The translations under genes were made by a program, and so were the position numbers. Below the pieces are notes generated by a model. The model was not told where the DNA came from and made no database searches. It saw only the letters and a list, made by a program, of their open reading frames with translations. Below, piece by piece: positions 18,330-52,080 of a stretch of 64,000 nt of DNA (positions within the stretch are counted from its first letter, which is position 1; the number at the start of each line of letters is the position of its first letter). Origin of the DNA: Flavobacterium johnsoniae. Lineage in GTDB: Bacteria > Bacteroidota > Bacteroidia > Flavobacteriales > Flavobacteriaceae. The stretch lies in NCBI RefSeq assembly GCF_001879205.1, contig NZ_MLFK01000006.1:186001-250000 (forward strand), read 5' to 3'.

Positions 18330-18360
18330 TTACGCAGTAGGCTTTAGGCTTTAAGCCTTT

Positions 18361-34788: not shown

Positions 34789-34811
34789 GTATCTGAAAAT
34801 AAAATATTTAA

Positions 34812-34847: not shown

Positions 34848-34986
34848 TTTTACGGCATAATATTCATTTGTTAAAACTTGTAAACAGCCCTTGATTTTAC
34901 TTACTTTTTATTAATTTTGATTTATGTAAGAAAAATAACAATATATAATTTAAAATCACGTTTAATTTCTTATAATATTTATCACA

Positions 34987-35976
34987 ATGAAAATAAGGAA
35001 TTTTTTAATAATTGTATTTGCTGTCTTTGGTGCATTAGGTGCTAAAGCACAATCTAATTTACTGAATGCTAAAACTGCTGACCAGATTGGGTTAAAGCCT
35101 GCTGCAAGGCTTATTTCTGATAATGATAAGCCATTAGCTTATGGTTATGTAGATGATAGAGATATCTTGATGGGAAAAACTACTTGGGAGATCATTGATT
35201 TGAATGAAAAGATCAATTTTCCTCTATATTTCCCTGTAGATACTGCAAATATAGGACCGGATAGGCGGTCGCTCTACGATGTATTGACTAAGGCTATAAA
35301 AAATGGCAGAATAACAGAAGTTTATACAGATAGTTATTTTAATACCAAAAAGTCAATGAAAGATATTACCGGAGCTTTGTCTCGTGTAGATACTACAGAT
35401 GCCGGTAGAGAACTGATAAACCAATATCCGGATGATTACAGAACACGAGTTGTTAAGAAAAAAGTCGTTACAGGCACTGGTAAGAAAAAAGTTGTTACTT
35501 ATGTAGATGAAACAGTAGGGCCTACAAGAACAGTTCCTGCGGAGTATATATTGAAGCAAGATCTTACAGCTGCTGATGTTTCACAATACAAAATAAAAGG
35601 ATACTGGTACTTTGATAAACGTCAGAGCGAATTGAAATATCGTTTGCTTGGAATTTGTCCTGTAACTCCAGATGTTTATACAATGAATAGTGACGAAAAA
35701 GATTATATTGAATTATTTTGGGTTTTCTTTCCCGATGCGCGGGAAGTTTTGCATGAAGCAAAAGCTTTCAACGACAAAAATTCAGCAGTTCCAATCTCAT
35801 TTGATCAGGTTCTAAATTCAAGACGTTTCAATGCTGTTATCTACAAAGAAGAAAACATGTATGGTGATCGTGAGATTAAAGATTATATTAAGGATGATGC
35901 GCTGAATCAATTATTAGAGTCTGAAAGAGTAAAAGAAAAGATCCGTAATTTTGAGGAAGATATGTGGAATTACTAA
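34987..35976 (+). CDS. gldO: GldN paralog GldO
   Basis: A 329-residue paralog of GldN with the same length and mostly the same residues. Differences cluster in the signal peptide (MKIRNFLIIVFAVFGALGAKAQ) and the C-terminal tail (EIKDYIKDDALNQLL). In F. johnsoniae, gldO is the partly redundant copy of gldN and lies in the same place. It has its own 198-bp upstream region after the gldN terminator, so it is probably transcribed separately. The following terminator copies that of gldN, showing that the duplicated segment included the terminator. Confidence 0.95.
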   Translation: MKIRNFLIIVFAVFGALGAKAQSNLLNAKTADQIGLKPAARLISDNDKPLAYGYVDDRDILMGKTTWEIIDLNEKINFPLYFPVDTANIGPDRRSLYDVLTKAIKNGRITEVYTDSYFNTKKSMKDITGALSRVDTTDAGRELINQYPDDYRTRVVKKKVVTGTGKKKVVTYVDETVGPTRTVPAEYILKQDLTAADVSQYKIKGYWYFDKRQSELKYRLLGICPVTPDVYTMNSDEKDYIELFWVFFPDAREVLHEAKAFNDKNSAVPISFDQVLNSRRFNAVIYKEENMYGDREIKDYIKDDALNQLLESERVKEKIRNFEEDMWNY

Positions 35977-37792: not shown

Positions 37793-38368
37793 ATGGCAAT
37801 AAATTTACAAAAAGGACAAAAAATTGACATTGGACTGTCTAGAATTTCTGTAGGATTAGGCTGGGACCCAAATGAGGGCACAGGTCATGAATTTGACTTA
37901 GATGCTTCTGCAATAATGATCAACTCTGATCGTAAACTTCTGGATGAAAATTACTTTGTTTTTTATAATAATTTAAATTCTCCTGATGGAGCGCTGGAGC
38001 ATACGGGAGATGACCCAACAGGCGGTAACAGCGATGGAGATGATGACGAGGCAATAAAAGTAGATTTAAGTAAAATTGACCCAAATGTTCAGGAGATCCT
38101 TTTTGTAGTTACTATCGAAGATTTTGAAAGAAGAAAACAAAATTTTGGACAGGTCCGAAATTCTTATATTAGAATTGTGGATGATGCAAATGGAGAAGAA
38201 ATTGCTAAATACGAATTAGACGAGGATTTTTCGGTTGAAACTGGAGTTGAATTCGGAAGACTTTACAAACGCAATAACCAGTGGAGATTTGAAGCTTCGG
38301 GTATTGGATATAAGGCAGATTTAGGCTTTTTCCTTGAAAAATACTTTTCGGGAGAAATAATAAAATAA
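37793..38368 (+). CDS. terD: TerD-domain protein 1
   Basis: A 191-residue TerD-family calcium-binding stress protein, first gene of the Ter cluster. It shows the family pattern: MAINLQKGQKI start, FDLDASA, VFYNNL.SPDGALEHTGDDPTGG, a DGDDDEAI acidic loop for calcium, RKQNFGQVRNSYIRI, and GRLYKRNNQWRFEASGIGY near the end. TerD proteins are soluble and thought to form membrane-associated scaffolds in metal and other stress responses. Unlike the other canonical copies, its C terminus ends in FLEKYFSGEIIK instead of a GGL.DYLNKYN tail. Confidence 0.95.
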   Translation: MAINLQKGQKIDIGLSRISVGLGWDPNEGTGHEFDLDASAIMINSDRKLLDENYFVFYNNLNSPDGALEHTGDDPTGGNSDGDDDEAIKVDLSKIDPNVQEILFVVTIEDFERRKQNFGQVRNSYIRIVDDANGEEIAKYELDEDFSVETGVEFGRLYKRNNQWRFEASGIGYKADLGFFLEKYFSGEIIK

Positions 38369-38424
38369 TATTAACTGTGCGCATTCAAAATCAGAATGTT
38401 TCCATCTTTTTTTTAAAATAAATT

Positions 38425-39090
38425 TTGAAAATAAATTACAAAAATCACAACCATTTTTCTTTTGATTTATGGCTAACATTGATACGGTCTAATCCTGAAT
38501 TTAAACGAAAGAGAAATCTATTGTTTAAAGATTTTTTTGAAATAAATGCATCTATCGAAAAAGTATCTGAGGTAGTGCGTTATTATGATGTTTTGTGCAA
38601 TAACATTAACGAAAAAACAGGATTAAATTTAAGTACTTACGAGATTTATTACCTAATTTTAGGCGCCCTCGAGGTAAATTTAGAATCAAATGGTTTAGAC
38701 AGATTAGCCGCGTTTTATGATGAGACAGAAGCTTTATTTTTTAATAATAAACCAGAATTGATTTTTCCAGATATTAAAATTCAGTTTGAAGAGATAGTTT
38801 CAGAAGGAAAATCAATTAACATATTGAGCAATACCGGATTTATAAAGGGAAAAAGTTTAAGAAAACTGATATCGCATTATGAATTGGCAGATTTTATTTC
38901 CTTTCAGATTTATTCTGATGAAGTAGGGTTTTCAAAACCAAACAAAGAAATTTTTCAGCTGGTTTTTGATCGGGTAAAAGAATCAAAAGAAATACAAAAA
39001 AACAAAATACTGCATATTGGAGATAATAGTATTGCAGATTATAATGGCGCAGTCAATTTTGGATTTGAAGCGCATCTATTAAAAAATTAA
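38425..39090 (+). CDS. HAD-family hydrolase of the Ter cluster
   Basis: A 221-residue haloacid-dehalogenase-like hydrolase. The first motif reads FDLWLTLI, with nucleophile Asp14 and Trp16 in place of the second Asp (DxWxT). The second motif is LSNTGF, and the fourth is LHIGDNSIADYNGAVNFG. Translation appears to start at a TTG (38425); no upstream ATG is available. The PRTase gene begins 2 bp after it. Published analyses of Ter operons describe a HAD/PRTase/ATP-grasp module predicted to make a nucleoside-like metabolite; only HAD and PRTase are present here. Confidence 0.82.
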   Translation: MKINYKNHNHFSFDLWLTLIRSNPEFKRKRNLLFKDFFEINASIEKVSEVVRYYDVLCNNINEKTGLNLSTYEIYYLILGALEVNLESNGLDRLAAFYDETEALFFNNKPELIFPDIKIQFEEIVSEGKSINILSNTGFIKGKSLRKLISHYELADFISFQIYSDEVGFSKPNKEIFQLVFDRVKESKEIQKNKILHIGDNSIADYNGAVNFGFEAHLLKN

Positions 39091-39092
39091 AA

Positions 39093-39899
39093 GTGAACAA
39101 AAGTTACAGCTTACATAAAATTATCGACAAAGATAATTGTCCATTTAAAGAAAATGAATACAGCCGATTTAAGTTTGGTGACAAATTTTACGCAGAAAAA
39201 TTTGCCAAAGATTTATTTGCAGGATTTGTAGATCAGTTTAGAGAACTACTTCTTTCAGACGAAGAGATTGTCATTTTACCTAGTCCGTATTTGTCTATAC
39301 CTACGGCTTCCAACTTCCTATGTTACTATTTCAAAAAAGAATTAAACAGCTTTTTATTTAGAAATGGTAAAAAAGCCAGTATAGAGTCAAAAATCTATAG
39401 AAATCAAACCTATGTTACAGATTACGGAAATTTGGACTTTAATGAAAGAGTGAATTTAATATCCAATGATACGTATTACATTGACCGAAACTTTATTAAT
39501 GATAAACTCTGCATTTTTGTTGACGATATCAAAATAACCGGAAGTCACGAACATACAGTAAACAAGATACTAAATCAGTATAATGTAAACGGAGATTTCA
39601 TTTTTGTTTACTTCGCAGAACTGGCCAATAAGGAGATTCATCCTAAAATTGAAAACCATTATAATTATTTTGATATTAAAAATGTTGAAGATATTATCTC
39701 GGTTATTAACAGCGAACACTTTCAATACAATACCAGAATAGTAAAATTTATTTTGAGTTTAAATGAAGAGGAGTTTGGGTATTTAATCAATAGTATTTCT
39801 TCTCAAAAAAGCGATGAATTATTTCATTTGGCGATAAGCAATAATTATCACCAGATTTTAGAATATAAAACAAACATTAATGTAATAAAAATAGATTAA
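39093..39899 (+). CDS. Phosphoribosyltransferase-like protein of the Ter cluster
   Basis: A 268-residue PRTase-fold protein. The PRPP-binding loop is readable as CIFVDDIKITGSHE (residues 140-153), matching the DD..TTG.T pattern with Ile and Ser substitutions; a helix-rich C-terminal extension follows. The start is a GTG at 39093, two bases after the HAD stop, so the two are translationally coupled. It fits the metabolite module predicted for Ter systems. Substrate and product are unknown. Confidence 0.75.
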   Translation: MNKSYSLHKIIDKDNCPFKENEYSRFKFGDKFYAEKFAKDLFAGFVDQFRELLLSDEEIVILPSPYLSIPTASNFLCYYFKKELNSFLFRNGKKASIESKIYRNQTYVTDYGNLDFNERVNLISNDTYYIDRNFINDKLCIFVDDIKITGSHEHTVNKILNQYNVNGDFIFVYFAELANKEIHPKIENHYNYFDIKNVEDIISVINSEHFQYNTRIVKFILSLNEEEFGYLINSISSQKSDELFHLAISNNYHQILEYKTNINVIKID

Positions 39900-39903
39900 C
39901 ACT

Positions 39904-40458
39904 ATGGCTATCAACTTACAAAAAGGACAGCGCGAAAATATAAACGCTCCGAAATTTACAATTGGTTTAGGATGGGATACAAACAACAGCACCACAGGAT
40001 CAAGTTTTGACCTTGATGCTTCTGTTTTTATTTTAGGTGATAACAGAAAAATTTTATCTGATTCTCATTTTGTTTTTTACAATAACCTTAAATCTCCGGA
40101 TGAGGCAGTTATTCATACAGGTGATAACCTAACAGGAGACGGTGACGGAGATGACGAACAAGTAAAAATTGACCTTACTAAAATAAACCCGGCTGTAAAA
40201 GAAGTTTGTATTGTAGTAACGATTCATGACGCTGTAAACAGAAAACAAAATTTTGGACAGGTTAGAAATTCGTTTATCAGAATTGTAGATGACAGCAATA
40301 ATACAGAAATGGTGAAATATGAATTAGAAGAAGATTTCTCTATAGAAACTGCAGTTGAGTTTGGAAGAATTTACAATAAAGACGGGCAGTGGAAATTTGA
40401 AGCAATGGGTGTTGGAATGAAAGGCGGATTAGAAGATTATTTAAACAAATATAACTAG
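39904..40458 (+). CDS. terD: TerD-domain protein 2
   Basis: A 184-residue canonical TerD protein: GLGWDTN, FDLDASVFIL, HFVFYNNLKSPD.AVIHTGDNLTG, the acidic calcium loop GDGDGDDEQVKIDL, NRKQNFGQVRNSFIRI and the GGLEDYLNKYN tail. It starts 4 bp after the PRTase gene and is 4 bp before the next TerD gene, so it belongs to one long transcript. It is closest to TerD protein 4 (43168-43719), with which it forms one half of a repeated gene pair. Confidence 0.96.
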   Translation: MAINLQKGQRENINAPKFTIGLGWDTNNSTTGSSFDLDASVFILGDNRKILSDSHFVFYNNLKSPDEAVIHTGDNLTGDGDGDDEQVKIDLTKINPAVKEVCIVVTIHDAVNRKQNFGQVRNSFIRIVDDSNNTEMVKYELEEDFSIETAVEFGRIYNKDGQWKFEAMGVGMKGGLEDYLNKYN

Positions 40459-40462
40459 AAAC

Positions 40463-41071
40463 ATGGCAATTAACTTAGAAAAAGGACAACGTATAAATCT
40501 TGAAAAAAGTAATGGTACCAAATTGCAAAACATTTGTGTTGGTGTAAATTGGGGCGCAATTGAGAAAAAAGGTTTTTTTGGAACTAAAAAAGAAGCGGTA
40601 GATTTAGATGCCAGCTGTGCCGTTTATGATGATAAAAAAAATCATATTGATTCTGTAAATTTCAGAAAATTAATTTCAAACGACCGTGCTATTAAACACA
40701 GTGGAGATGATTTGACAGGAGATTTAAATGGAGATGACGGTTTAGATAATGAAGTGATCACTTTAGATTTTTCACAACTATCACCGGCAGCAAACCATGT
40801 TGCGTTTTTTATAAATAGTTTTAGAGGACAGGATTTTAAAGATATTCCTTTTGCTTCTATCCGTATCTACGAAGGAACACCTACAAAAGTAAGCCAGGAA
40901 TTTGCACGTTTTGATGTGGCAAACGATGTAACTTTTGCAGGAAATGTTTCTATGGTTTTAGGGGTGTTTTACAAAAGAAATGAGGAGTGGAAATTTAGTG
41001 CAGTTGGAGTTCCAACAAATGATAAAAAGCTGGAGCAGACTATCGTTACTATTCAACAAAATCATCTATAA
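40463..41071 (+). CDS. TerD-domain protein 3 (TerZ/TerA-like variant)
   Basis: A 202-residue TerD-family variant. It keeps MAINLEKGQRI and a DLDASCAVYD strand, but has the inserted GVNWGAIEKKGFFGTKKEA block and a different acidic loop, HSGDDLTGDLNGDDGLDNEVI. The second half has PFASIRIYEGTPTKVSQEFARFDV and VFYKRNEEWKFSAVG. This type matches the divergent partner of TerD in other clusters (TerZ/TerA-like). It pairs with the canonical TerD just upstream, and the same pair recurs at 43168-44400. Confidence 0.92.
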   Translation: MAINLEKGQRINLEKSNGTKLQNICVGVNWGAIEKKGFFGTKKEAVDLDASCAVYDDKKNHIDSVNFRKLISNDRAIKHSGDDLTGDLNGDDGLDNEVITLDFSQLSPAANHVAFFINSFRGQDFKDIPFASIRIYEGTPTKVSQEFARFDVANDVTFAGNVSMVLGVFYKRNEEWKFSAVGVPTNDKKLEQTIVTIQQNHL

Positions 41072-41077
41072 ACTAAA

Positions 41078-42166
41078 ATGGAAGAAAATCAATTAGTTAC
41101 TCAGGAAAATACCGCTTTGATTGACAAAGATGGTAATGTGAATTTAACTTCAATCTCAGAAGCTGAAGTAAATAATTTCAAATCAATTTCGAATCAGTTA
41201 AACGAAAATGATGCGAATTCGATTTTAAACTATGGAGCCGAAATTCAAAATTCGATAGCCAAGCAAAGTGATACTTTCTTAACTAATGTTAGAACATATA
41301 ATTCTGGCGAAGTAGGAACTCTAATCAATGATTTGTTGACAGAATTAAATTATGTTGATGTAGATCAGCTTGATCAGGGGCCTTTTAAAAGATTTCTTTC
41401 TAAAATTCCACTGCTGAATAAACTAGTAGTAGATGTAAAAAAGTTATTCCAGCAATACGATAAAATTACGGTTAATATTGATAAAATCAGTAATAAGGTA
41501 AAGGCCGGAATGATCAATTCTGTAAAAGATAACAGTGCGCTTCAAACTATGTTTGACGGTAATGTTGGTCTTATTAAAGAAATGGAAAAACATATTATTG
41601 CAGGGCAGATTCGATTTAAAGAATTAGGAGAAGAACTTGCTGTAATGGAAGGAAATCCGGCTCAGTACCAGGATTACCAGATTTCAGACAAAAGAAATTT
41701 CATTAATCGTCTCGACAAACGTCTTGCCGATATGAAAATTGTTCGTTTCATTATGCTGCAATCTTTAGCGCAAATACGTGTGGTTCAAAATAACAACACC
41801 TCAATTGCCGAGAAAGCACAGTCTATCCTGACTACCACAATGCCAGTCTGGAAAAACCAGCTTACACTTGCTGTGGCACTTCAAAGACAAAAACAAAATA
41901 TTGAAGTTCAGAGGAGAGTATCTGAAACCACTAATACCATTTTGCAGAAAAATGCAGAAATGCTGAAACAAAATAGTATTGAAGTGGCGAAAGAAAATGA
42001 AAACACAGTCGTTTCATTAGAGACATTAAAAATGACGACTAAATCATTAATAGACACTTTAACCGAAGTAAAACAAATTCACGACCAAGGTACAGAAACC
42101 CGCAGACAGCTTGATGCAGGATTACAAAGCCTTGAAGCAGAATTGAAAAAAGGGGTTGTAAGTTAA
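41078..42166 (+). CDS. telA: TelA-family toxic anion resistance protein
   Basis: A 362-residue cytoplasmic helical protein of the TelA (toxic anion resistance) family, found with Ter systems and linked to tellurite resistance. It shows GEVGTLINDLLTELNYVD, PFKRFLSKIPLLNKL near residues 100-120 and RIDKRLADMK-like and QSLAQIRVVQNNN segments that are typical, and a coiled-coil C terminus (NTILQKNAEMLKQNS...). It begins 6 bp after TerD protein 3. Confidence 0.93.
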   Translation: MEENQLVTQENTALIDKDGNVNLTSISEAEVNNFKSISNQLNENDANSILNYGAEIQNSIAKQSDTFLTNVRTYNSGEVGTLINDLLTELNYVDVDQLDQGPFKRFLSKIPLLNKLVVDVKKLFQQYDKITVNIDKISNKVKAGMINSVKDNSALQTMFDGNVGLIKEMEKHIIAGQIRFKELGEELAVMEGNPAQYQDYQISDKRNFINRLDKRLADMKIVRFIMLQSLAQIRVVQNNNTSIAEKAQSILTTTMPVWKNQLTLAVALQRQKQNIEVQRRVSETTNTILQKNAEMLKQNSIEVAKENENTVVSLETLKMTTKSLIDTLTEVKQIHDQGTETRRQLDAGLQSLEAELKKGVVS

Positions 42167-42186
42167 AAGAATAAGGAATTAACGGA

Positions 42187-43155
42187 ATGCAGCAAGAGGA
42201 AGAGGAAAGATACGTTCAAATAATAAAAGATAGTAACAGAAAGCTTGTGGTTTTAAAATTGTTGTCCAATTTTTTTAACCACAAGGATTTTGTTGGCGTT
42301 TTGGTAAGAACAAAAGTCATTCATTCTCTTTTTCAAAAGAATCAATCATTAGACATTAATAAACTCGAATTGTTTCACATTCAGTATACAAATAGTCTGA
42401 TTGATTTGTTTCAAAAAATAAAAAAATCTAAAGAACAGCAGTATACTCTCATTTCAGATGAAATATACATTAACGGCGATATAATCTCAAAACTGAGTTT
42501 TGAAATAGGAGAAGAAAAATTCTCTGATCAGACAAAAGAGCACGCCCAAAAAATGTCAAAAAAAATTGAGCAGCTCTATCAGATTTTTGCAACAGATAGT
42601 AATAGTTTTTTTGATTGGAGTGATGTAATGTCTTTTTCGGATGCCATTAAATCAGAATATTACAGGGAGATTAATATCGATCAATATGAAAAACTGACTA
42701 CTGCCAATAAGAAAAATTATGAAAACAAGTACGTTAAGTTCGAGAAAAAACTCTTAGGCCGACTTAACATACTCAATTTTAAGATTAAGTTTTTATGCGG
42801 TTTAGTTTGTAATAATGAGATTATTGAGGTGTATGAGTTTAGAGATTCTAATGACAAATTTATTTTTGTTGGAAATGAAAAATCTTTTTCTTTCATAGAA
42901 AACGATATGGAAAAAGTAGTAAATCTTTCAAAAAATAATTCGGCTAAAGAAGAAATTATTGCGCAATTGAAAGATAAAAACGCTTTGTTGGAATTAGAAT
43001 TAAGCACAATTAAAACCTCTCTTCCAGAGAGTGTTCAAGAAGTTTTAAAAGATTATTTAAATAAAATATCATCTGTTGACTTTTTAGAAGATTTGCAAAA
43101 TGTCGATGAACAGACTAATATTTTGAAAACAATGTTGAATATTAATATTAATTAA
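42187..43155 (+). CDS. Uncharacterised coiled-coil protein of the Ter cluster
   Basis: A 322-residue protein with no recognised domain. It is mostly helical, starting with a Glu-rich QQEEEERY, with a charged middle (KFEKKLLGRLNILNFKIKF) and a heptad-like region near the C terminus (AQLKDKNALLELELSTIKTSL). No membrane segment or catalytic motif stands out. It sits 20 bp after telA and 12 bp before the second canonical TerD pair, so it is plainly part of the operon. A structural or adaptor role is possible. Confidence 0.7.
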   Translation: MQQEEEERYVQIIKDSNRKLVVLKLLSNFFNHKDFVGVLVRTKVIHSLFQKNQSLDINKLELFHIQYTNSLIDLFQKIKKSKEQQYTLISDEIYINGDIISKLSFEIGEEKFSDQTKEHAQKMSKKIEQLYQIFATDSNSFFDWSDVMSFSDAIKSEYYREINIDQYEKLTTANKKNYENKYVKFEKKLLGRLNILNFKIKFLCGLVCNNEIIEVYEFRDSNDKFIFVGNEKSFSFIENDMEKVVNLSKNNSAKEEIIAQLKDKNALLELELSTIKTSLPESVQEVLKDYLNKISSVDFLEDLQNVDEQTNILKTMLNININ

Positions 43156-43167
43156 AGAATAAATAAA

Positions 43168-43719
43168 ATGGCAATTAACTTAGAAAAAGGTCAAAGACAA
43201 AGTATTGACGCACCAAAATTTATTGTGGGACTTGGATGGGACAGTAACTCAAGTAATACAGGTTCAGATTTTGATTTAGATGCTTCAGTTTTTTTGGTGG
43301 GTGCAAATGGCAAAATTCCAAATGACAACCATTTCGTTTATTACAACAACTTAAAATCGCCTGATGGAGCGGTAACTCATACCGGAGATAACTTAACAGG
43401 TGCAGGAGATGGAGATGATGAAAAAATACAAATTGATCTATCTACAATATCTCCGGATGTGCATGAAATTTCATTTGTTGTAACGATTCACCACGCCGAT
43501 ACAAAAAGACAAAACTTCGGACAAATTAGAAATTCATATATCAGAATCCTCGATCAAACTAACACAGAACTGGTTAAATACGAATTAGATGAAGATTTTT
43601 CTATTGAAACTGCAGTTGAGTTTGGAAGAATTTATAAAAGAAATAATGAGTGGAAATTTGAAGCAGTTGGTATTGGAATGAAAGGCGGCTTACAAGATTA
43701 TTTAAATAAATATAATTAA
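43168..43719 (+). CDS. terD: TerD-domain protein 4
   Basis: A 183-residue canonical TerD protein with all signature elements: GLGWDSNSSNTGSDFDLDASVFL, YYNNLKSPDGAVTHTGDNLTGAG, the DGDDEKIQIDL calcium loop, KRQNFGQIRNSYIRI and the GGLQDYLNKYN tail. It is followed 21 bp later by a TerZ/TerA-like variant, repeating the arrangement at 39904-41071. Confidence 0.96.
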   Translation: MAINLEKGQRQSIDAPKFIVGLGWDSNSSNTGSDFDLDASVFLVGANGKIPNDNHFVYYNNLKSPDGAVTHTGDNLTGAGDGDDEKIQIDLSTISPDVHEISFVVTIHHADTKRQNFGQIRNSYIRILDQTNTELVKYELDEDFSIETAVEFGRIYKRNNEWKFEAVGIGMKGGLQDYLNKYN

Positions 43720-43740
43720 CTTAAACCCTATTAAAAAACT

Positions 43741-44400
43741 ATGGCAATTAACTTAACCAAAGGACAAAAAATTGATTTAAGAAAAACAAGCGGAGAAACA
43801 TTAACCAATTTCTGCGTTGGTGTAAACTGGGGAGCAATAGAAACCAAAGGATTCTTAGGATTATCAAAAAACGTAGTAGAAATCGACTTAGATTTGAGCT
43901 GTGTATTAATTGACGATCAAAATAAACTTTGCGATCATTTATATTCTCCTTTGTACAGAGTCGAAGTATTACAGCAATTTGGTCTTCCAAAAGGTAAATT
44001 GTTAAGTGTTGACGGAGCTCTAAAACACACTGGTGATGACCTTGCAGGAGATACCGGAGGTGATGATGGTTTGGATAATGAAATTATTACGGTTGACCTT
44101 TCTAAAGTTGATGCCAAAGTTAGTCAGATATTTTTCTTCTTAAATAATGCCGGAAAAGAAGATTTCTCTCAAATTCCTTATGCAAAAATCAGAATGTATG
44201 AGGGTACTCCAACAAAAGTAGTTTCAGAATTTGCTTCGTATAATGTTTCTGCAGATTCACAATACGTAAACAAACGCTCAATTATCATGGGTAAATTGTA
44301 CAAACGTAATGGCGAATGGAAATTCAGCGCGATTGGAGATCCAACAGATGATACATTCTTAGGACAGACGATTCATAAAATCGTACAATCTTACCTGTAA
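43741..44400 (+). CDS. TerD-domain protein 5 (variant with insertion)
   Basis: A 219-residue TerZ/TerA-like TerD variant, sister to TerD protein 3: GVNWGAIETKGFLGLSKNVVEIDLDLSC, HTGDDLAGDTGGDDGLDNEIITVDL, PYAKIRMYEGTPTKVVSEF and LYKRNGEWKFSAIG. It has an added stretch (DHLYSPLYRVEVLQQFGLPK, about 60-79) not seen in its sister. Its stop codon overlaps the start of the next gene by one base (TAATG), so the two are coupled. Confidence 0.92.
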   Translation: MAINLTKGQKIDLRKTSGETLTNFCVGVNWGAIETKGFLGLSKNVVEIDLDLSCVLIDDQNKLCDHLYSPLYRVEVLQQFGLPKGKLLSVDGALKHTGDDLAGDTGGDDGLDNEIITVDLSKVDAKVSQIFFFLNNAGKEDFSQIPYAKIRMYEGTPTKVVSEFASYNVSADSQYVNKRSIIMGKLYKRNGEWKFSAIGDPTDDTFLGQTIHKIVQSYL

Positions 44401-44816
44401 TGGAAATCAAAAACATTGAAGGACTAAGAGTTTCTCAAATAAGAGACATGGTTCAGCAGGGAGGTAAATTTGTGGTTTTTCCGTACACAGTTTCATTTAT
44501 ATTAATGACCTTAAAAAGAAGTTCTGATATTTATTTTATCAGACCTGACGAAAATACTTTTAAGTATTCTTACGGATATGTATTTCTAAATTTAATCATT
44601 GGCTGGTGGGGAATTCCGTGGGGCCCCATTTATACAATTGGGTCAGCATACCATCATGTAGTTGGAGGCAAAGACCTGACTCAGGCAGTTATGAGCCATT
44701 TAGCACAGCATGATCCTGAGGCCAATACAAATACATATAATATTAATGGTATCGAAAGCTCTAATCAGGCAGGCGATATTAATAACGAGAGACCAACTTA
44801 TAATATTCCTGTATAA
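44400..44816 (+). CDS. Small hydrophobic protein of the Ter cluster
   Basis: A 138-residue protein coupled by a TAATG overlap to the upstream TerD gene. It has one or two membrane-spanning stretches (about 23-40 and 55-80), the second containing YVFLNLIIGWWGIPWGPIYTIGSAYH with an aromatic-rich GIPWGPIY motif. The tail is polar and Asn-rich. No family is recognised; a membrane anchor or partner for the TerD/vWA proteins is an inference from position. Confidence 0.68.
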   Translation: MEIKNIEGLRVSQIRDMVQQGGKFVVFPYTVSFILMTLKRSSDIYFIRPDENTFKYSYGYVFLNLIIGWWGIPWGPIYTIGSAYHHVVGGKDLTQAVMSHLAQHDPEANTNTYNINGIESSNQAGDINNERPTYNIPV

Positions 44817-44829
44817 ATAAATTTTAACC

Positions 44830-45468
44830 ATGAGAAGACTGCCTGTATATTTAGTATTAGACACATCGGGATCAATGACCGGTGAGCCTATTGAAGCTGT
44901 GAAAAATGGCGTTCAAATGATGATTAGTTCATTAAGACAAAATCCGCAAGCCATTGAAACTGCTTTTTTAAGTGTAATAACTTTCGATACTACAGCGCAG
45001 CAAATTATTCCTTTAACAGATTTGGCATCTTTTCAAATGGTTGATCTTAAGGCTTCAGGTGTAACCGCACTGGGCGAAGCGTTACGATTAGCTGCACAAA
45101 AAATAGAAACTGAAGTTGCCAAAACAACAACAGAACAGAAAGGAGACTGGAAACCATTAGTTTTTATTATGACCGATGGAATCCCCACTGATAATTGGGA
45201 AAATGGTCTGAATGAATTTAAGAAAGCAAAAGTTGCCTTTACAGTTGCGTGCGGTGCAGGAGGCGGAGCAGATACTGCAATTTTAAAACAAATTACAGAT
45301 AATGTAGTAAGTCTCGATACTGCAGACAGCGCTAGTATTGGCAAGTTTTTTCAATGGGTAACCGCTTCAATTGGAGTAACTTCAACAAAAGTTGAAGATT
45401 TTGGTAAAGATTTTACAAATTTTAAAGAATTACCTCCGCCGCCATCTGAATTAAACATTGTGGTTTAA
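44830..45468 (+). CDS. vWA-domain protein 1 (TerY-like)
   Basis: A 212-residue single-domain von Willebrand factor A protein. The metal-ion-dependent adhesion site is intact: DTSGSM at residues 11-16 (Asp11, Ser13, Ser15), with a later Thr in GVTALGEAL and an Asp in FIMTDGIPTDNW. TerY-like vWA proteins act with a kinase and phosphatase in Ter systems. The protein ends with the short tail ELPPPPSELNIVV, shared with the next vWA protein. A 162-bp gap without a gene follows. Confidence 0.93.
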   Translation: MRRLPVYLVLDTSGSMTGEPIEAVKNGVQMMISSLRQNPQAIETAFLSVITFDTTAQQIIPLTDLASFQMVDLKASGVTALGEALRLAAQKIETEVAKTTTEQKGDWKPLVFIMTDGIPTDNWENGLNEFKKAKVAFTVACGAGGGADTAILKQITDNVVSLDTADSASIGKFFQWVTASIGVTSTKVEDFGKDFTNFKELPPPPSELNIVV

Positions 45469-45630
45469 CTTCCGGAAAGGCGGAGTTTTTATAGTACTGT
45501 TTTTAATTAAGTTTTTTAGTATTACATCTTTTTGATAGAAGTTATACGCATTACGTATGCCTATAATTTTTGCCATCTGGTTGTGAGCGTTAGGTAATTT
45601 CATTTATTAAATCATTTTCTTTAAAGTTAT

Positions 45631-46266
45631 ATGAGAAGACTACCAGTTTATTTTTTACTAGATACATCAGGATCGATGTATGGAGAGCCAATTCAAGCTT
45701 TAAATAATGCTTTAAGTGGTATGATCAATACGTTGCGTTCAGATGCTCAGGCGTTAGATTCACTTTGGATCAGCATAATTACGTATGACCGAGAAGTAAA
45801 AGAAATCGTGCCGCTGACAGAGCTGGTTCACTTTCAGCTTCCAGAAATCACTTGTCCGCAGAGTGGTCCCACAAATACAGGAGCCGGACTTGATTTTGTT
45901 ATTCAAAAAGTAAATAAAGAAGTTATAAAAGGTTCTGCAGATCAAAAAGGAGATTGGAAGCCGCTACTTTTTGTTTTTACCGACGGAAAACCATCCGATA
46001 TTCAGTTTTACAGAGAGAAGACTGCCGAAATACGAAATATGAGTTTTGGAGCAGTTGTAGGATGTGCAGCCGGACACATGGCCAATGATGATATTCTAAA
46101 AGAACTGACAGACAACGTAGTACATTTAGCATCAGCTGATAGCTCTACGCTGAAACAATTTTTCAAATGGGTTTCAGAAACAATTGAACAAGGTAACAAA
46201 AGCCAGGGAACGGGAGAGAGTGTAATGCTTCCTCCGCCGCCAAGTGAAATAACTGTTGTGATCTAA
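45631..46266 (+). CDS. vWA-domain protein 2 (TerY-like)
   Basis: A 211-residue vWA protein paralogous to its upstream neighbour. MIDAS residues are kept: DTSGSM at 11-16 and FVFTDGKPSDIQ, with a Thr in GPTNTGAGL. It also ends in a Pro-rich tail, MLPPPPSEITVVI. It begins 162 bp after vWA protein 1, an unusually large gap for this cluster, so it may have its own promoter. The next gene starts 2 bp after its stop. Confidence 0.93.
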   Translation: MRRLPVYFLLDTSGSMYGEPIQALNNALSGMINTLRSDAQALDSLWISIITYDREVKEIVPLTELVHFQLPEITCPQSGPTNTGAGLDFVIQKVNKEVIKGSADQKGDWKPLLFVFTDGKPSDIQFYREKTAEIRNMSFGAVVGCAAGHMANDDILKELTDNVVHLASADSSTLKQFFKWVSETIEQGNKSQGTGESVMLPPPPSEITVVI

Positions 46267-46268
46267 TT

Positions 46269-46754
46269 ATGGAAGTGCTGGGAACAATAATTTCAGTTAT
46301 TGGTTTAATTGTACATATAATACAAAAAGTAAATCAATCCTCTCATGGAGATACTAACACGACTTATTACACTGACACGACCTACGCTGTTGTACACAAG
46401 TTTACACCGCAGGAAAAATTAGATAACATGAATATTGACAGTCTCAATATTTGTTATAAAACTGCCGGGATTAGTGGTTTTTCTATCGAAAAAGCCAGAC
46501 GAACTTTGCTTAACAGTTATGTGCAGCATGATTTTTATATAGACGATGTTATTATACGTCAAAATTGTATGTACATAAAAGTAATGCATGCTATCCCTTT
46601 TAATGGAGGAAATAAATGTTATGGAGCTTCTTTTTCCATGAATTTTATGACCGTAAATGATGGAGTTGCCGTTTATGGATCAAAGAAAATCAATGCCGAT
46701 GAAGAACTGGTTTTTAAAGAAATCGCAAACGAATTAATAAAAGCAGTTTCATAA
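46269..46754 (+). CDS. Membrane-anchored hypothetical protein of the Ter cluster
   Basis: A 161-residue protein with an N-terminal hydrophobic helix (EVLGTIISVIGLIVHIIQKV) that could be a membrane anchor, then a soluble domain of mixed strands and helices (YAVVHKFTPQEKLDNMN, IEKARRTLLNSY, FNGGNKCYGASFSMNF). No known family. It overlaps the next gene by one base (TAATG). Its position between vWA proteins 2 and 3 suggests that it works with them at the membrane. Confidence 0.65.
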   Translation: MEVLGTIISVIGLIVHIIQKVNQSSHGDTNTTYYTDTTYAVVHKFTPQEKLDNMNIDSLNICYKTAGISGFSIEKARRTLLNSYVQHDFYIDDVIIRQNCMYIKVMHAIPFNGGNKCYGASFSMNFMTVNDGVAVYGSKKINADEELVFKEIANELIKAVS

Positions 46755-47005
46755 TGTATTTCTTAAAACTATTTATCCAAATTCTAATTGTCGGGTTGTT
46801 TTTGTACTCCAAATTACTGCCGTATAAAGACAAATTGAATCCGCAGTACAAAGGCATATTTGAATTTTTCAATAGTATTTTTTCGCCCATATTCAATTCT
46901 CTAAAAACAATGATCAAACCTTTTCAGGTTGGAGTAGGTTTAGCGGTAGATATGACTCAGATCCTGCTTTTAGTTATTTTTTTAATGTTATTAAATTTCC
47001 TTTAA
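46754..47005 (+). CDS. Small two-helix membrane protein of the Ter cluster
   Basis: An 83-residue protein with a hydrophobic N-terminal helix (LKLFIQILIVGLFLYSKLL) and a hydrophobic C-terminal helix (VDMTQILLLVIFLMLLNFL), joined by a Phe- and Lys-containing loop. The start overlaps the upstream stop (TAATG) and the third vWA gene begins 1 bp after its stop. Tight coupling supports a real gene; function unknown. Confidence 0.62.
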   Translation: MYFLKLFIQILIVGLFLYSKLLPYKDKLNPQYKGIFEFFNSIFSPIFNSLKTMIKPFQVGVGLAVDMTQILLLVIFLMLLNFL

Positions 47006-47006
47006 G

Positions 47007-48059
47007 ATGAGAAGATTACCCATATATTTTTTAATTGATATTTCGGAATCAATGGTTGGAGAGCCCATTCAGCAGGTTGAGGAAGGATTGGCGACCATAA
47101 TTCAGGCTTTAAAAACAGATCCGCATGCTCTAGAAACTGTTTTTGTGTCGATTATAGTATTTGCCGGCCAGCCTAAAACACTCGTTCCTCTGCAGGAAAT
47201 TGTGAGCTTTTATCCGCCAAAATTTCCTATTGGCAGCGGTACATCGCTTAGCAAAGGTTTAGGACATTTAATGTATGAATTAAGAACTAATATCGTTAAA
47301 ACAACTTATGAGGTAAAAGGCGATTGGAAACCCATTGTATTCCTTTTTACAGATGGAGTTCCTACAGATGACAGTCAGGCAGCCATAAACGAATGGAAAC
47401 AAAACTGGCAGCGAACAGCCAACTTAATTGCGATCTCTTTTGGCAGCGAAACAGATACAAAATTATTAGGCGAACTTACAGAAAATGTACTTCATTTTAA
47501 AAATACCAATGTACAGTCGTACAAAGAGTTTTTTAAATGGGTCACAGATTCTATTAAAACAAGCAGTATAAGTGTAGAAAACAACTCGAGCGGTTTTGAA
47601 TTGGCTAAATTAGACGGAGAAACACTTTCGAAAATAGATTTAACCAAAGAAATTCCGAATCGTCAATATGTCGATGATAATTTTGTGGTTTTAAACGGAA
47701 AATGTCAAAATACCAAAAGACCGTATTTGATGAAATACCGCAAAACTATTGCCGAATCTATTTATGCCGGAATCGAATTATCGTCTAAAAATTACAAATT
47801 AGTCGGAGCTTATCAAGTTGATAATTCTTATTTTGAATTAGCCGATTCTGGAAATTTCAACAATAAAGTCAATACCGATGAACTTATAGGCGGTCCAACC
47901 TGTCCGTGTTGTGGCAATCAGGTTGCTTTTGCCGTTTGTGTATGCGGTAAAATACATTGTATTGGCGATGAAAATATCAGTACGTGTCCATGGTGCGGTA
48001 ATCAGGGAAGTTATGGCTGCGGTGAAGGCGGTTTTGATGTAAACAGAACGCAGGGATAA
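47007..48059 (+). CDS. vWA protein 3 with C-terminal zinc domain (TerY)
   Basis: A 350-residue protein joining a vWA domain (residues 1-190) to a TerY-C zinc domain. MIDAS is retained: DISESM at 11-16 keeps DxSxS, with FLFTDGVPTDD further on. The tail holds eight cysteines in pairs, CPCCGNQVAFAVCVCGKIHC and then CPWCGNQGSYGC, likely binding zinc. Of the three vWA proteins, this one matches the TerY of the TerY-phosphatase-kinase triad, and PP2C (3 bp later) and kinase (2 bp after that) follow directly. Confidence 0.92.
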   Translation: MRRLPIYFLIDISESMVGEPIQQVEEGLATIIQALKTDPHALETVFVSIIVFAGQPKTLVPLQEIVSFYPPKFPIGSGTSLSKGLGHLMYELRTNIVKTTYEVKGDWKPIVFLFTDGVPTDDSQAAINEWKQNWQRTANLIAISFGSETDTKLLGELTENVLHFKNTNVQSYKEFFKWVTDSIKTSSISVENNSSGFELAKLDGETLSKIDLTKEIPNRQYVDDNFVVLNGKCQNTKRPYLMKYRKTIAESIYAGIELSSKNYKLVGAYQVDNSYFELADSGNFNNKVNTDELIGGPTCPCCGNQVAFAVCVCGKIHCIGDENISTCPWCGNQGSYGCGEGGFDVNRTQG

Positions 48060-48062
48060 TTT

Positions 48063-49469
48063 ATGGAAGAGACTAAAAGATATATTCAGTCTTTTTTATC
48101 ACAAAAGAAAATTGACATTTCTGCAGATAAAGCAGCTCTTTTTGCAGCATTTGCTTCTAATGAACAAAATGTGAACGCAGTAAAAATAATTCAGGAAAAC
48201 CAAAAAATGATTATGGAGAATTGGATGTTGAAAAATAAAATTCATGATATTTTGACCCAAACGGTTTCAATACCAAACGGAACCGTTAATAAAAAATATT
48301 ATGCAAAAATTGATTTCAATACTTTGGGCTGGAATGATTTTATTGCCTTAGAAATTGAAGGTTTGGAAAATACAGGTCTTGAATTTACTAAAAATGATGA
48401 GCTTATTGGAACTCCAGAAATAAGCGGCGATTTAAAAATCAAAATAAAATTTAGGATTGAAGGCGAACCCGAAGATTCTGCTTTAAATGAAAAAGTGCTG
48501 ACGCTTATTATAAATCCAGATCCTAAATCATTGTGGAAAAATATTGAAAGCGATAAAAACGATCCTTTCTGGAAACCGGATAATGAAGCAGTTGCTGCTA
48601 AATTTTTAGATAAAAATATTGTAGTAGCATCCAAAAGAGGAAGAAGTCATGCCAATACGGGCTCCTTTAGAGAAGATGATTTTGCATTTAAAAATTTAAA
48701 AGAAATAGGCTGGAGTGTTCTGGCGGTTTCTGATGGGGCAGGATCTGCAAAACTCTCAAGAAAAGGTTCTAAAATAGCGTGTGAAACTGTTATTCAGTAT
48801 TTTGAAGAAAATTTAAATCCAGAAAATCTAAAAGAATTTGATCAGGTTTTGGCTGAGCATCATAATAAAGCCAGCGACGAAACATCAAAAAAAATAAGCC
48901 ATTTTGTTTATCAAAATCTTTCAAAAGCCGCACATGCTGCACATCAAAAATTAGAAGAATTTGCAATAAAAAACGAAACAGAATTAAAGAATTTACATGC
49001 AACTTTAATTTTTGCATTGGTTAAAAAATACGATTTTGGATATGCCATTTTAACTTTCGGAATTGGCGACTGCCCAATCGGATTATTAAATAAAGATCTT
49101 ACCGAAATTAAATTAATGAACTGGCTGGATGTAGGTGATTTTGGAGGCGGAACACGCTTTGTTACCATGCCCGAAATTTTTCAGAATGATAAATTTTCAA
49201 CCAGATTCGGCTTTAAACTTGTAGATGATTTCTCTTATTTAATGCTGATGACAGACGGAATTTACGACCCTAAATTTGTCGTTGAAGCCAATTTGGAAAA
49301 AATCGAAAAATGGAAAGATTTTCTTGATGATTTAAATGGGGGAAATGAAGATGGAAGTACAGTTGATTTTTCGAAAGAAAATTCTGATATTGCGCAACAG
49401 CTTTCGAGCTGGATGGATTTTTGGAGTCCGGGAAATCACGATGACAGAACCCTTGCTATAATTTATTAA
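48063..49469 (+). CDS. PP2C-type phosphatase of the TerY-P triad
   Basis: A 468-residue protein phosphatase. Residues ~185-468 are a PP2C domain: EDDFAF, VSDGAGSAKLSRKGS (Asp224), GIGDCPIGLL, LMTDGIYDPKF and a final HDDRTLAIIY supplying the late metal Asp. An N-terminal helical region (1-65) and an Ig-like domain (about 70-150, with GLEFTKNDELIGTPEISGDLKIKI resembling the He-PIG type) precede it. It presumably reverses phosphorylation by the adjacent kinase, with the vWA proteins as targets or adaptors. Confidence 0.9.
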   Translation: MEETKRYIQSFLSQKKIDISADKAALFAAFASNEQNVNAVKIIQENQKMIMENWMLKNKIHDILTQTVSIPNGTVNKKYYAKIDFNTLGWNDFIALEIEGLENTGLEFTKNDELIGTPEISGDLKIKIKFRIEGEPEDSALNEKVLTLIINPDPKSLWKNIESDKNDPFWKPDNEAVAAKFLDKNIVVASKRGRSHANTGSFREDDFAFKNLKEIGWSVLAVSDGAGSAKLSRKGSKIACETVIQYFEENLNPENLKEFDQVLAEHHNKASDETSKKISHFVYQNLSKAAHAAHQKLEEFAIKNETELKNLHATLIFALVKKYDFGYAILTFGIGDCPIGLLNKDLTEIKLMNWLDVGDFGGGTRFVTMPEIFQNDKFSTRFGFKLVDDFSYLMLMTDGIYDPKFVVEANLEKIEKWKDFLDDLNGGNEDGSTVDFSKENSDIAQQLSSWMDFWSPGNHDDRTLAIIY

Positions 49470-49471
49470 GT

Positions 49472-50983
49472 ATGAGTACTATTACAGTAAAATCTATTAA
49501 TGACAACGCAAAATCATATCAATTTGTTGATAATGGCGAACCTATGCGTGGTGGTGTAAAGGATGTTTATTTTAGTCCCGATAAAAAATATGTAGTTGCG
49601 ATTTTTAGAGAAAAACTAGATTTTAATCAAAAAGAGAGACTCCAAAGAATTACAAATAAATATTTAGTTCAAATTCAAAACGGAGATGCAGGCGACTATT
49701 ATTTAAACGAAGTATACAGATGGCCAACTGATGTTATTGAACATAAAGGATTAACCGGAATCATTGTGCCTATTTACGATTCTAAATTTTTCTTTAAAAA
49801 AGGTTATGAAACCAGCGATTTAATTCAGGGAAAAGAAAAAAACGGAAAATGGTTTGCAGGTTCTAAATTTAGAAATCCAAATTTTCCGCTTAGAGTTGCA
49901 AAATCAGAATTAGGCGATTGGCTGAGTTATTTCCAGGTTTGTGTCAATTTGACCCGCGGCGTAAAAAAAATGCATGCCATGGGATTGGCACATTCTGATT
50001 TATCATACAATAATGTTCTAATAGATCCTGTCAATAAATCGGCATGTATGATTGATTTGGATGGACTTGTAGTTCCGGGATTATTTCCTGCAGAAGTTAT
50101 TGGTACAGCAGAATTTATAGCACCAGAAGTACTTTCTACCAAACATCTTAATAAAACTGATCCCAATAGAAAATTACCAAGCAGATTAACAGATCTGCAT
50201 GCATTGCCGGTTTTAATTTATATGTTTTTATTGCACAGACATCCGTTAAAAGGAGGAAAGGTCCATGATCTTGATACCGAAAAAGATGATTTGCTGTCTA
50301 TGGGAGAAAAAGCAATGTTTATAGAACATCCAACTGACGCAGCAAACAGACCAAAACTCAATCAGGTTTCAAAATGGGACTTGCCTTGGGCAGATATCAC
50401 CAAATTGCCTTATGCCATTACAGGTCCATATCTTAAAACCTTGTTTGACAAAGTTTTCATAGACGGATTGCACAACCCAATGCAGAGACCAAATGCAGAA
50501 GAATGGGAAATCGCACTGTTAAAAACAACTGATTTGATGCAAAAATGCCATAACGCTTCATGCGAACAAAAATGGTATGTTTTTGATAACACAAATACAC
50601 CTAGATGTCCGTTTTGTAATACTGCTCACAAAGGGACACTTCCGGTTTTAGACCTTTATTATCAGTTTCAGGAAACCGTCTGGAAACCCGAGAATCACAG
50701 ATTAATGGTTTATAACGATCAATATTTGTTTCAATGGCATGTTAATCGTAATATTGCCCGAAATGAAAAACTCACGGCAGAACAAAAAGTGCCGGTAGGT
50801 TATTTTACTTTCTATAATGATAAATGGGTATTTGTTAATCAAAAGCTGACATCATTAAAAGATGTTACGGAGGATAAAGAAATTCCTATTGGGACAATGC
50901 TGGAGCTTACAGATGGTAAAAAAATACTCCTTTCTAAAGAAGAAGGAGGCAGGGTTATAGTAGTTACAATGGCCAATAAATAA
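49472..50983 (+). CDS. Protein kinase of the TerY-P triad
   Basis: A 503-residue Ser/Thr kinase-like protein. The catalytic loop reads AHSDLSYNNVLID (Asp176, Asn181) and the metal site IDLDGLV (Asp195), a DLDG form of DFG. The usual beta-3 lysine is not evident: the strand reads KYVVAIFREKLD. A zinc ribbon follows the kinase fold (CHNASCEQKW...RCPFCNTAH), then a C-terminal strand-rich domain. It starts 2 bp after the phosphatase. The combination matches the TerY-P triad described for Ter systems. Confidence 0.88.
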   Translation: MSTITVKSINDNAKSYQFVDNGEPMRGGVKDVYFSPDKKYVVAIFREKLDFNQKERLQRITNKYLVQIQNGDAGDYYLNEVYRWPTDVIEHKGLTGIIVPIYDSKFFFKKGYETSDLIQGKEKNGKWFAGSKFRNPNFPLRVAKSELGDWLSYFQVCVNLTRGVKKMHAMGLAHSDLSYNNVLIDPVNKSACMIDLDGLVVPGLFPAEVIGTAEFIAPEVLSTKHLNKTDPNRKLPSRLTDLHALPVLIYMFLLHRHPLKGGKVHDLDTEKDDLLSMGEKAMFIEHPTDAANRPKLNQVSKWDLPWADITKLPYAITGPYLKTLFDKVFIDGLHNPMQRPNAEEWEIALLKTTDLMQKCHNASCEQKWYVFDNTNTPRCPFCNTAHKGTLPVLDLYYQFQETVWKPENHRLMVYNDQYLFQWHVNRNIARNEKLTAEQKVPVGYFTFYNDKWVFVNQKLTSLKDVTEDKEIPIGTMLELTDGKKILLSKEEGGRVIVVTMANK

Positions 50984-51013
50984 TTTAAAATCTAACTTAA
51001 TTAATATTTAAAA

Positions 51014-52021
51014 ATGAATCAACACCCTATTTTTTCAGAACATCCCGGTTTAATAATAGTTTTTGCGGTTGCAGTAGTAATCATGCTGTTGTTAGATTTA
51101 GGAATCTTCAACAAGAAAAGCCATGTCGTAACTAATAAAGAAGCGATTACATGGTCATTAGTATGGATAAGTTTAGCAATGATTTTTAGTGGTTTGATCT
51201 ATCACTTTGCAGGAGCTGCCAAATTTTATGAGTTCCAGTCTGCATACTGGATAGAGAAAGCACTTTCTGTAGATAATCTTTTTGTATTTATATTGGTTTT
51301 TAAATTTTTTGATGTACAAAACGAAAACAAACATAAGGTTCTTTTCTGGGGTATTATAGGAGCCTTGGTTTTAAGGGCTATTTTTATATTCTCAGGAGCA
51401 TTCTTAATAGAACTTACTTACCTAAACAAACTATTAAGTCTTGTTGGAGTAGAAGGTTTCAAATATGACATCAATTTAATCATGACAGCCTTTGGATTAT
51501 TCCTTGTATATGCAGGAATCAAATCTTGGTCTGCCGGAGATGATGATGACGAAGAAGATTACAACAATACAAGAGGAGCAAGATTAATCAGAAAGTTTTT
51601 TAGTGTTTCTGATAAATACGATGGCGATAAATTCTTTACATACGAAAACGGAAAAAAATTAGCAACACCGCTTTTAGTAGTGGTAGCAGTAATCGAGTTT
51701 ACGGATTTATTATTTGCAGTTGACTCTATTCCGGCGATTTTTGCGATTTCAAATGATCCATTTATTCTTTACACTTCTAACATTTTTGCAATTTTAGGAT
51801 TAAGAGCACTGTTCTTCTTATTAGATAATTTCATTCACTTATTTAGTAAGCTGCAATACGGACTGGCCATTATCCTTTCTTTCATTGGTGTGAAAATGAT
51901 TATTGCTCCATTCTATCATATTGATTCGATTTATTCGTTAATTGTTATTGGAGGAATTTTAGTAATATCAGTATTATTATCAATTTTATTACCAGAGCCA
52001 AAAGAAGCAACAGAGGTATAA
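51014..52021 (+). CDS. terC: TerC-family membrane protein
   Basis: A 335-residue inner-membrane protein of the TerC/Alx family, involved in metal-ion (notably manganese) handling and tellurite resistance. It has about eight to nine helices and the family motifs WSLVWISLAMIFSGLIYHFAG, SAYWIEKALSVDNLFVFILVF (with the conserved Glu and Asp in the membrane), VVAVIEFTDLLFAVDSIPAIFAI and ALFFLLDNFIHLFSKLQYGL. An acidic loop (GDDDDEEDYN) lies in the middle. It ends the Ter cluster, followed by a terminator. Confidence 0.95.
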   Translation: MNQHPIFSEHPGLIIVFAVAVVIMLLLDLGIFNKKSHVVTNKEAITWSLVWISLAMIFSGLIYHFAGAAKFYEFQSAYWIEKALSVDNLFVFILVFKFFDVQNENKHKVLFWGIIGALVLRAIFIFSGAFLIELTYLNKLLSLVGVEGFKYDINLIMTAFGLFLVYAGIKSWSAGDDDDEEDYNNTRGARLIRKFFSVSDKYDGDKFFTYENGKKLATPLLVVVAVIEFTDLLFAVDSIPAIFAISNDPFILYTSNIFAILGLRALFFLLDNFIHLFSKLQYGLAIILSFIGVKMIIAPFYHIDSIYSLIVIGGILVISVLLSILLPEPKEATEV

Positions 52022-52048: not shown

Positions 52049-52080
52049 GGATAGAAGTCTAAAAGATTTCTATCCTTTTT
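52049..52080 (+). terminator. Ter-cluster terminator after terC
   Basis: GGATAGAA (52049-52056) pairs with TTCTATCC (52068-52075), followed by a T tract. Confidence 0.85.

Follow-up and report, generated by a model that had tools for sequence, protein, structure and literature searches.

A Ter operon of Flavobacterium johnsoniae and its HAD and PRTase_3 gene pair as a possible source of a TerD ligand

The sequence considered here, hereafter the window, is a 64,000-nucleotide stretch of the Flavobacterium johnsoniae genome (contig NZ_MLFK01000006.1, positions 186,001 to 250,000), which harbors at window positions 37793–52021 a Ter operon of approximately 14 kb (Table 1). The operon comprises 18 genes, all on the + strand and all present as open frames, with 15 of the 17 intergenic gaps not exceeding 30 bp; the gaps range from −1 to 30 bp except for two wider ones of 56 bp (between TerD1 and the HAD gene) and 162 bp (between VWA1 and VWA2). 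The cluster had been delimited in an earlier reading made from the letters alone (the sequence-only reading), whose coordinates and spacing of mostly 0–30 bp were reproduced, and the Pfam search agrees with its assignment of five TerD proteins, a HAD protein, TelA, three von Willebrand factor A (vWA) proteins, the third of which carries a TerY_C domain, a PP2C_2 phosphatase, a kinase and TerC. One assignment had to be changed, since the protein encoded at 39093, regarded there as partly of unknown family, is a full-length PRTase_3 with residues 1–265 aligned to positions 1–264 of the 264-position profile PF15610 (E = 1.4e-90). The proteins encoded at 42187, 44400, 46269 and 46754, which were described as being of unknown family, indeed gave no Pfam or NCBIfam family above cut-off and no PADLOC match at E 0.1.

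Table 1 Genes and features of the Ter operon, in window coordinates
Feature	Coordinates	Strand	Basis
TerD1, canonical TerD, 191 aa	37793..38368	+	PF02342, 3.1e-68
HAD-family enzyme, motif I F-D-L-W-L-T-L, listed start TTG	38425..39090	+	PF00702, 1.4e-7
PRTase_3, ComF-like phosphoribosyltransferase, PRPP loop DDIKITGS, listed start GTG	39093..39899	+	PF15610, 1.4e-90
TerD2, canonical TerD	39904..40458	+	PF02342, 2.5e-72
TerDx3, divergent TerD with insertions	40463..41071	+	PF02342, 1.6e-31
TelA	41078..42166	+	PF05816, 5.1e-92
U322, no known family, constant TelA neighbor	42187..43155	+	below every Pfam/NCBIfam cut-off
TerD4, canonical TerD	43168..43719	+	PF02342, 2.5e-73
TerDx5, divergent TerD	43741..44400	+	PF02342, 2e-30
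U138, small, hydrophobic middle, no known family	44400..44816	+	no Pfam/NCBIfam/PADLOC match
VWA1, vWA protein, metal site DTSGS	44830..45468	+	PF00092, 4.4e-15
VWA2, vWA protein, metal site DTSGS	45631..46266	+	PF00092, 3.7e-14
U161, no known family, fast-evolving	46269..46754	+	no family match
U83, small hydrophobic protein	46754..47005	+	sub-threshold YGGT match only
TerY, vWA and TerY_C metal-binding domain	47007..48059	+	PF15616, 3.4e-50
PP2C-type phosphatase (PP2C_2)	48063..49469	+	PF13672, 6e-30
Protein kinase, C-terminal CxxxxC...CxxC stretch	49472..50983	+	PF00069, 8.6e-9
TerC, membrane protein	51014..52021	+	PF03741, 3.2e-48
Terminator-like hairpin at the end of the operon	52049..52075	+	12-bp stem with a T run behind it

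The same gene order recurs in relatives, so the cluster is far beyond what chance would assemble, and there is next to no doubt about its composition and its division into blocks. It represents a published kind of gene cluster, the Ter system, in a Bacteroidota form built from known parts. According to a search of the genome, the five TerD genes and the one TerY_C gene of the operon are the only ones present. The three canonical TerD proteins score 229–246 bits against the Pfam profile and the two divergent ones 106–110 bits; TerD2 and TerD4 share 72% identity, TerDx3 and TerDx5 55%, and TerDx3 is 33–37% identical to the three canonical proteins. U161 shows 45–89% identity across the Flavobacterium loci possessing it, compared with 90–99% for VWA2, and such fast evolution could suit a protein that is exposed or shaped by conflict. 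The gap between VWA1 and VWA2 (45469–45630) was considered as a conserved regulatory element and rejected, the gap being poorly conserved and 2 bp or shorter in four Bacteroidota loci.

The close relatives are Flavobacterium species, and the genes flanking the operon in the window recur in the genus. The downstream side was compared in 30 loci, the closest by ABC-F score among 99 matching genomes: in 25 of them the two genes known from the upstream flank of the operon, an oxidoreductase-like gene and DUF983, directly adjoin the ABC-F gene, and in five, the window's included, it is TerC that adjoins it. Of the 23 Flavobacterium loci in the survey described below, 17 have DUF983 on the upstream side of the operon, and in one relative the operon is located elsewhere in the genome with the ABC-F site being empty. 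The existence of empty and filled sites indicates that the operon is gained or lost as a unit, in most cases at a single place; an empty site shows gain or loss of the block, not its direction. A recent foreign origin judged by composition found no support, the G+C content being 33.3% in the operon and 33.7% in the remainder of the window. Elsewhere in the window, at 33799–35976, there are two adjacent, closely similar genes coding for 329-aa proteins, which are probably the tandem gliding genes gldN and gldO.

A survey of gene content across Bacteroidota, which the sequence-only reading had proposed, was performed with PRTase_3 as the query, and the best 80 of 152 relatives were read: 23 loci from Flavobacterium/Flavobacteriaceae, 53 from Chryseobacterium and four others, a sample biased to these two genera. 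Here and below, counts of loci, genomes and phages, tests included, ignore relatedness. All 80 loci contain HAD, PRTase_3 and TerD genes, with TerD2 present in each of them, and the HAD gene is located directly upstream of the PRTase_3 gene on the same strand without exception. The other blocks vary, as TelA occurs without PP2C in 56 loci, both occur in 20, PP2C without TelA in four, and no locus lacks both; the commonest form (50 of 80) reads HAD, PRTase_3, TerD, TelA, U322, divergent TerD, TerC. A whole TerC frame is present in 60 loci, and in the other 20 the available sequence ends at or before it. The operon thus consists of four combinable blocks: HAD and PRTase_3, inseparable in all the loci read and tied to TerD; TelA with U322 and the vWA/PP2C/kinase block, each of which can be missing from a locus; and TerC, which ends the operon. 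Beyond this sample, another five Bacteroidota genomes, of which four represent other orders within the class, have HAD, PRTase_3, TelA and U322 together, and TerD as well.

The second constant association is that of TelA with U322, which was found in all 76 loci with TelA and in none of the four without it (Fisher test, 6e-7). The U322 gene follows TelA by 6 to 144 bp in every TelA locus and is split into two frames in one. The AlphaFold model of U322, with a predicted local distance difference test score (pLDDT) of 83, is long, consists largely of helices and includes a small beta domain; it gave no Foldseek match at E ≤ 0.001, and VIA-align returned generic helical rows, the best with Z 8.7 and a root-mean-square deviation (rmsd) of 11.9 over 187 residues. 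A relative of U322 beside phage TelA was sought as well and not accepted, because the TelA neighbor in Klebsiella phage KP13-16 gave no significant match and that in coliphage BME3 matched at E 0.1 only. The simplest reading of this gene neighborhood is that U322 acts as a partner of TelA.

The link between the pair and TerD was examined in 395 evenly drawn Bacteroidota genomes for each of TerD, PRTase_3 and PRTase_2, taken as one set. TerD is present in 21 of them and PRTase_3 over the cut-off in 15, all of which are among the 21 (hypergeometric probability 1e-22); three more genomes have a sub-threshold PRTase_3 match and no TerD. The dependence runs one way, as six TerD genomes have no PRTase_3: two of these possess the vWA/PP2C/kinase block, three have TerD genes only with no other recognized part in the stretch read, and in one the contig is too short to tell. 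Outside chromosomes, PRTase_3 was detected in 154 of 50,697 phage records, 102 of which are named Escherichia phages, and TerD, by a different method, in 233. Among 72,556 plasmids PRTase_3 was found in 14 (17 with a phage query), solely from Rhizobium, Sinorhizobium and Hymenobacter, and TerD in 2,608. In each of the 30 loci read from phages or plasmids, a set in which at least one phage is counted twice and two further records may be the same virus, the HAD gene stands directly before PRTase_3, with gaps of up to 208 bp. TerD occurs somewhere in 20 of the 26 phage records with the pair and in 15 of the 16 that are at least 100 kb long, and the Hymenobacter plasmid with the pair also has TerD. 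Two rhizobial pairs lie at 9361–10831 and 7346–8819 of the stretches read, one of these plasmids having glycosyltransferase, radical SAM and UbiA genes nearby.

Among the Ter clusters of tailed (jumbo) phages, that of coliphage BME3 is compact, and its roughly 9 kb (9283–18624 of the stretch) code for HAD, PRTase_3, a Macro-domain protein, TerC, a protein with no assignment, TelA, a TerF-type vWA protein and TerD. Coliphage tuntematon and KP13-16 carry much of the same cluster. The clusters of BME3 and KP13-16 share HAD with PRTase_3, TelA and TerD with the window operon, and that of BME3 also TerC, but unlike the window their stretches have no significant match to TerY, PP2C, kinase or U322. 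A word search in the main text of coliphage papers, including one on BME3, returned neither "tellur" nor "phosphoribosyl".

An alternative reading is a metal-handling and envelope-stress operon, in which TerC would export Mn2+ (or Ca2+) to secreted proteins, TerD would buffer or sense Ca2+, TelA and U322 would support the membrane, and the HAD/PRTase_3 pair would be a housekeeping function such as nucleotide salvage. In its favor, TerC is present in all 60 loci whose sequence reaches past its place, and the chromosomal site, judged by the upstream DUF983, is shared by those 17 of 23 loci. The TerC proteins of B. subtilis, including MeeF (YceF), export Mn2+ to secreted enzymes and metalate them (PMC12096827), and terC of Klebsiella contributes to tellurite and zinc resistance (PMC12054061). 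What this explanation does not account for is that PRTase_3 over the cut-off was never found without TerD in the 395 genomes, nor why a lytic phage would carry the pair, TerC, TelA and TerD together, and we consider it unlikely.

Another possibility is provided by the TerY, PP2C and kinase genes, which correspond to the adjacent vWA, PP2C and kinase genes of the TerY-P triad antiphage system: the triad would sense infection and TerD, TelA and TerC would alter the membrane so as to stop the phage. The TerY-P triad is reported to act against T7-like phages (Gao 2020, via PMC7699616), triads accompany CoCoNuT restriction systems (PMC11090510), and phage-borne Ter parts are proposed to serve superinfection exclusion (PMC7824862). 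The operon is also patchy in the genus, being present in four genomes, the window's own included, among the same-genus genomes of a set of 120. Five Chryseobacterium-like genomes possess a second TerD locus. In three of them this locus combines TerD1-like genes, TerD genes and the triad of TerY, PP2C and kinase, the contig breaking off behind TerY in one case; in the other two it has TerD1 alone. A simple absence of the triad from Chryseobacterium is thereby ruled out, and the window operon resembles a fusion of a TerD/triad locus with a pair/TelA locus which are kept separate in some relatives. These second loci raised the probability of a defence role very slightly, yet 56 of the 80 loci have TelA and the pair with no PP2C beside them, two of the five second loci have no PP2C either, no nuclease or PADLOC defence family was prominent among the ten proteins scanned, and the flanking DUF983 and ABC-F genes are neither defence nor mobile genes. 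The stand-alone TerY-P defence form has a kinase fused to an OB-fold (PMC11090510), whereas the Pfam scan of the window kinase shows no OB-fold family and the protein instead has a C-terminal cysteine-rich stretch, consistent with a zinc ribbon as in the Ter and CoCoNuT types. No McrB-type GTPase, helicase or nuclease family characteristic of CoCoNuT is encoded among the 18 genes, to which that search was confined. An antiphage role of the operon is improbable in our view.

The best-known Ter operons were represented by the IncHI2 cluster (terZABCDEF with the TerY triad) read in the Raoultella plasmid pHNTS53-1. The two clusters have in common the TerD family, TerC, two small vWA proteins, a TerY_C protein, PP2C and the kinase; the window profiles for TerC, vWA, TerY, PP2C and kinase match the IncHI2 proteins at 181–638 bits, the highest value being that of the kinase, with VWA1 matching the vWA protein at 5885–6604 (327 bits) and VWA2 that at 4583–5224 (244 bits). 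Between these two vWA genes the plasmid has a TerD gene, whereas the window has the 162-bp gap. The two differ in their enzymes: the IncHI2 block includes ATPgrasp_Ter, PRTase_2-TRSP, StiP-PELOTA, C-C_Bond_Lyase and a protein with weak HAD-phosphatase matches, and the window profiles for HAD, PRTase_3, TelA and U322 have no match in that cluster at E 0.5. TerA-, TerB-, TerF- and TerW-type genes of IncHI2 have no counterparts in the window operon. The yceCDEFGH operon of B. subtilis likewise combines TerD paralogues, TerC (MeeF, formerly YceF) and a TelA-like protein. PRTase_3, in contrast, matches none of 14 control genomes, B. subtilis among them.

The lack of an ATP-grasp gene in the operon, pointed out by the sequence-only reading, was borne out, and the genome check proposed with it gave a best ATPgrasp_Ter match of 24.7 bits, below the cut-off of 29.1, inside a 957-aa frame. 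Of the eight PRTase_3 genomes searched whole, four have a match that passes the cut-off and four one that falls short of it. Every such match lies in a frame of 957–1072 aa, probably CarB, carbamoyl-phosphate synthase, and the profile also matches in 13 of the 14 control genomes. PRTase_2 is absent from all eight whole genomes with PRTase_3, the window's own included, and is over the cut-off in one of the 395 Bacteroidota genomes. The missing ATP-grasp therefore looks like a property of this branch rather than of one genome. Given one PRTase_2 genome and 15 PRTase_3 genomes out of 395, the pair is the usual Ter enzyme block in the sample, and it stands in for the larger set of enzymes found in the best-known Ter operons. 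As for TerB, also suggested for a genome-wide check, there is none in the operon, and elsewhere in the genome there is one match of 30.0 bits, which is over the cut-off and covers only positions 79–116 of 118, in a 148-aa frame. The Pfam scan of the operon genes detected neither StiP nor C-C_Bond_Lyase.

With regard to the chemistry of the pair, the phosphoribosyl pyrophosphate (PRPP) loop DDIKITGS of PRTase_3 is kept in all 80 loci, which makes PRPP its likely substrate. The PRTase_3 model (pLDDT 91.8) has Helicobacter pylori ComF as its nearest fold (Z 11.1, rmsd 2.9 over 153 residues), behind which comes a large tie of mostly purine PRTases plus ShosT at Z of about 7.5–8.8; a search by sequence gave no solved relative at E below 0.05. 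PRTase_3 was present in eight genomes of the set of 120, the window's own included. HAD phosphatases usually carry a second acid two residues after the nucleophile (D-x-D). The HAD protein has tryptophan at this position, motif I being D-x-W in all 80 Bacteroidota loci, as also in the nearest solved HAD structure (PDB 2om6), and among the phage and plasmid HAD proteins the residue is tryptophan in 26 of 27 loci and tyrosine in one.

These properties may also suit an effector that consumes PRPP, draining PRPP or purines instead of making a signal. PRPP consumption has reportedly been proposed as the mode of action of ShosT-type PRTases, and the PRTase_3 model resembles PRPP-bound ShosT (Z 7.6) as well as ComF, the protein has a weak PADLOC match to ShosT (E 0.012), and the accompanying HAD is devoid of the usual acid. 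ShosT, however, shares its Z of 7.6 with dozens of purine PRTases, and no toxin–antitoxin arrangement was noticed. We regard draining as the least probable of the explanations considered.

Neighbors of the pair in phages and plasmids were tallied for 96 proteins, namely 94 of 144 neighbor frames, short frames and probable antisense frames having been dropped by eye, plus two added by hand. The tally contained two Macro, one PARP and one NADAR protein, too few to argue for an ADP-ribose/NAD link of the pair. A Macro-domain gene does stand right after PRTase_3 in BME3 (10782–11498 of the stretch) and tuntematon (6812–7285), and a Klebsiella phage has a WGR-PARP gene near PRTase_3 (7929–9209), hinting at ADP-ribose chemistry near the pair.

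We propose that PRTase_3 would transfer phosphoribose from PRPP to an acceptor and that the HAD enzyme would finish the product, giving a nucleoside-like molecule that may be bound by the TerD proteins. Ligand-bound TerD could then act on a membrane assembly made up of TelA, U322 and the metal transporter TerC, and TerY, PP2C and the kinase, where present, would add a metal-sensing phosphorylation switch as a control layer. The constancy of the pair, its co-occurrence with TerD, the BME3 cluster, the TelA–U322 pairing and the placement of TerC all support this scheme, to which as a whole we give an even chance, metal handling and phage defence being its live rivals; that the pair makes a TerD ligand, taken separately, has a probability of about one half. 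A similar division of roles is proposed in a review of jumbo phages, with PRTase and HAD as signal makers, TerD and TerB as sensors and TerC with TelA as membrane responders (PMC7824862).

Several observations weigh against the ligand scheme. The complete 171-kb phage RHph_I1_18 has the pair and no TerD, as do five phage fragments with records shorter than 80 kb. In two rhizobia the plasmid record that bears the pair is likewise devoid of TerD, the search having covered the plasmid records; the pair can therefore exist apart from TerD. The absence of the second acid makes the label "phosphatase" unsafe for the HAD enzyme, and the triad genes at second TerD loci imply that the triad is harder to do without than one would gather from the 80 loci. 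Moreover, both the product of the pair and its binding by TerD are predictions from sequence. In a more specific version, HAD (D-x-W) and PRTase_3 would by themselves synthesize a nucleoside-like messenger not described before, with TerD as the receptor. This synthase would be common to the chromosomes of Bacteroidota and to large phages and would differ from the pathway of ATP-grasp and PRTase_2, and U322 would be the membrane-side partner in the response of TelA. This version is put forward only tentatively and is doubtful as it stands.

The suggestion of the sequence-only reading that this is an under-described system holds in part: the modules have been published together with the roles ascribed to them (PMC7824862, PMC11090510), whereas neither the stable two-enzyme form nor the TelA partner U322 is described in the portions of those papers available to us. 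The PRTase_3 family itself is already known as a Pfam entry, and the pair is not claimed here as unpublished.

The founding paper on Ter systems is that of Anantharaman from 2012, and from that year on the products of these operons and the stimuli they respond to have been a matter of prediction. A two-enzyme block without the rest of the enterobacterial set shrinks the question to two proteins and one candidate receptor family. This block is found both in a Chryseobacterium locus of seven genes and in phages growing on E. coli K-12, that is, in hosts whose genes can be removed, and the pair thus offers a simple route to the small molecule made by Ter systems.

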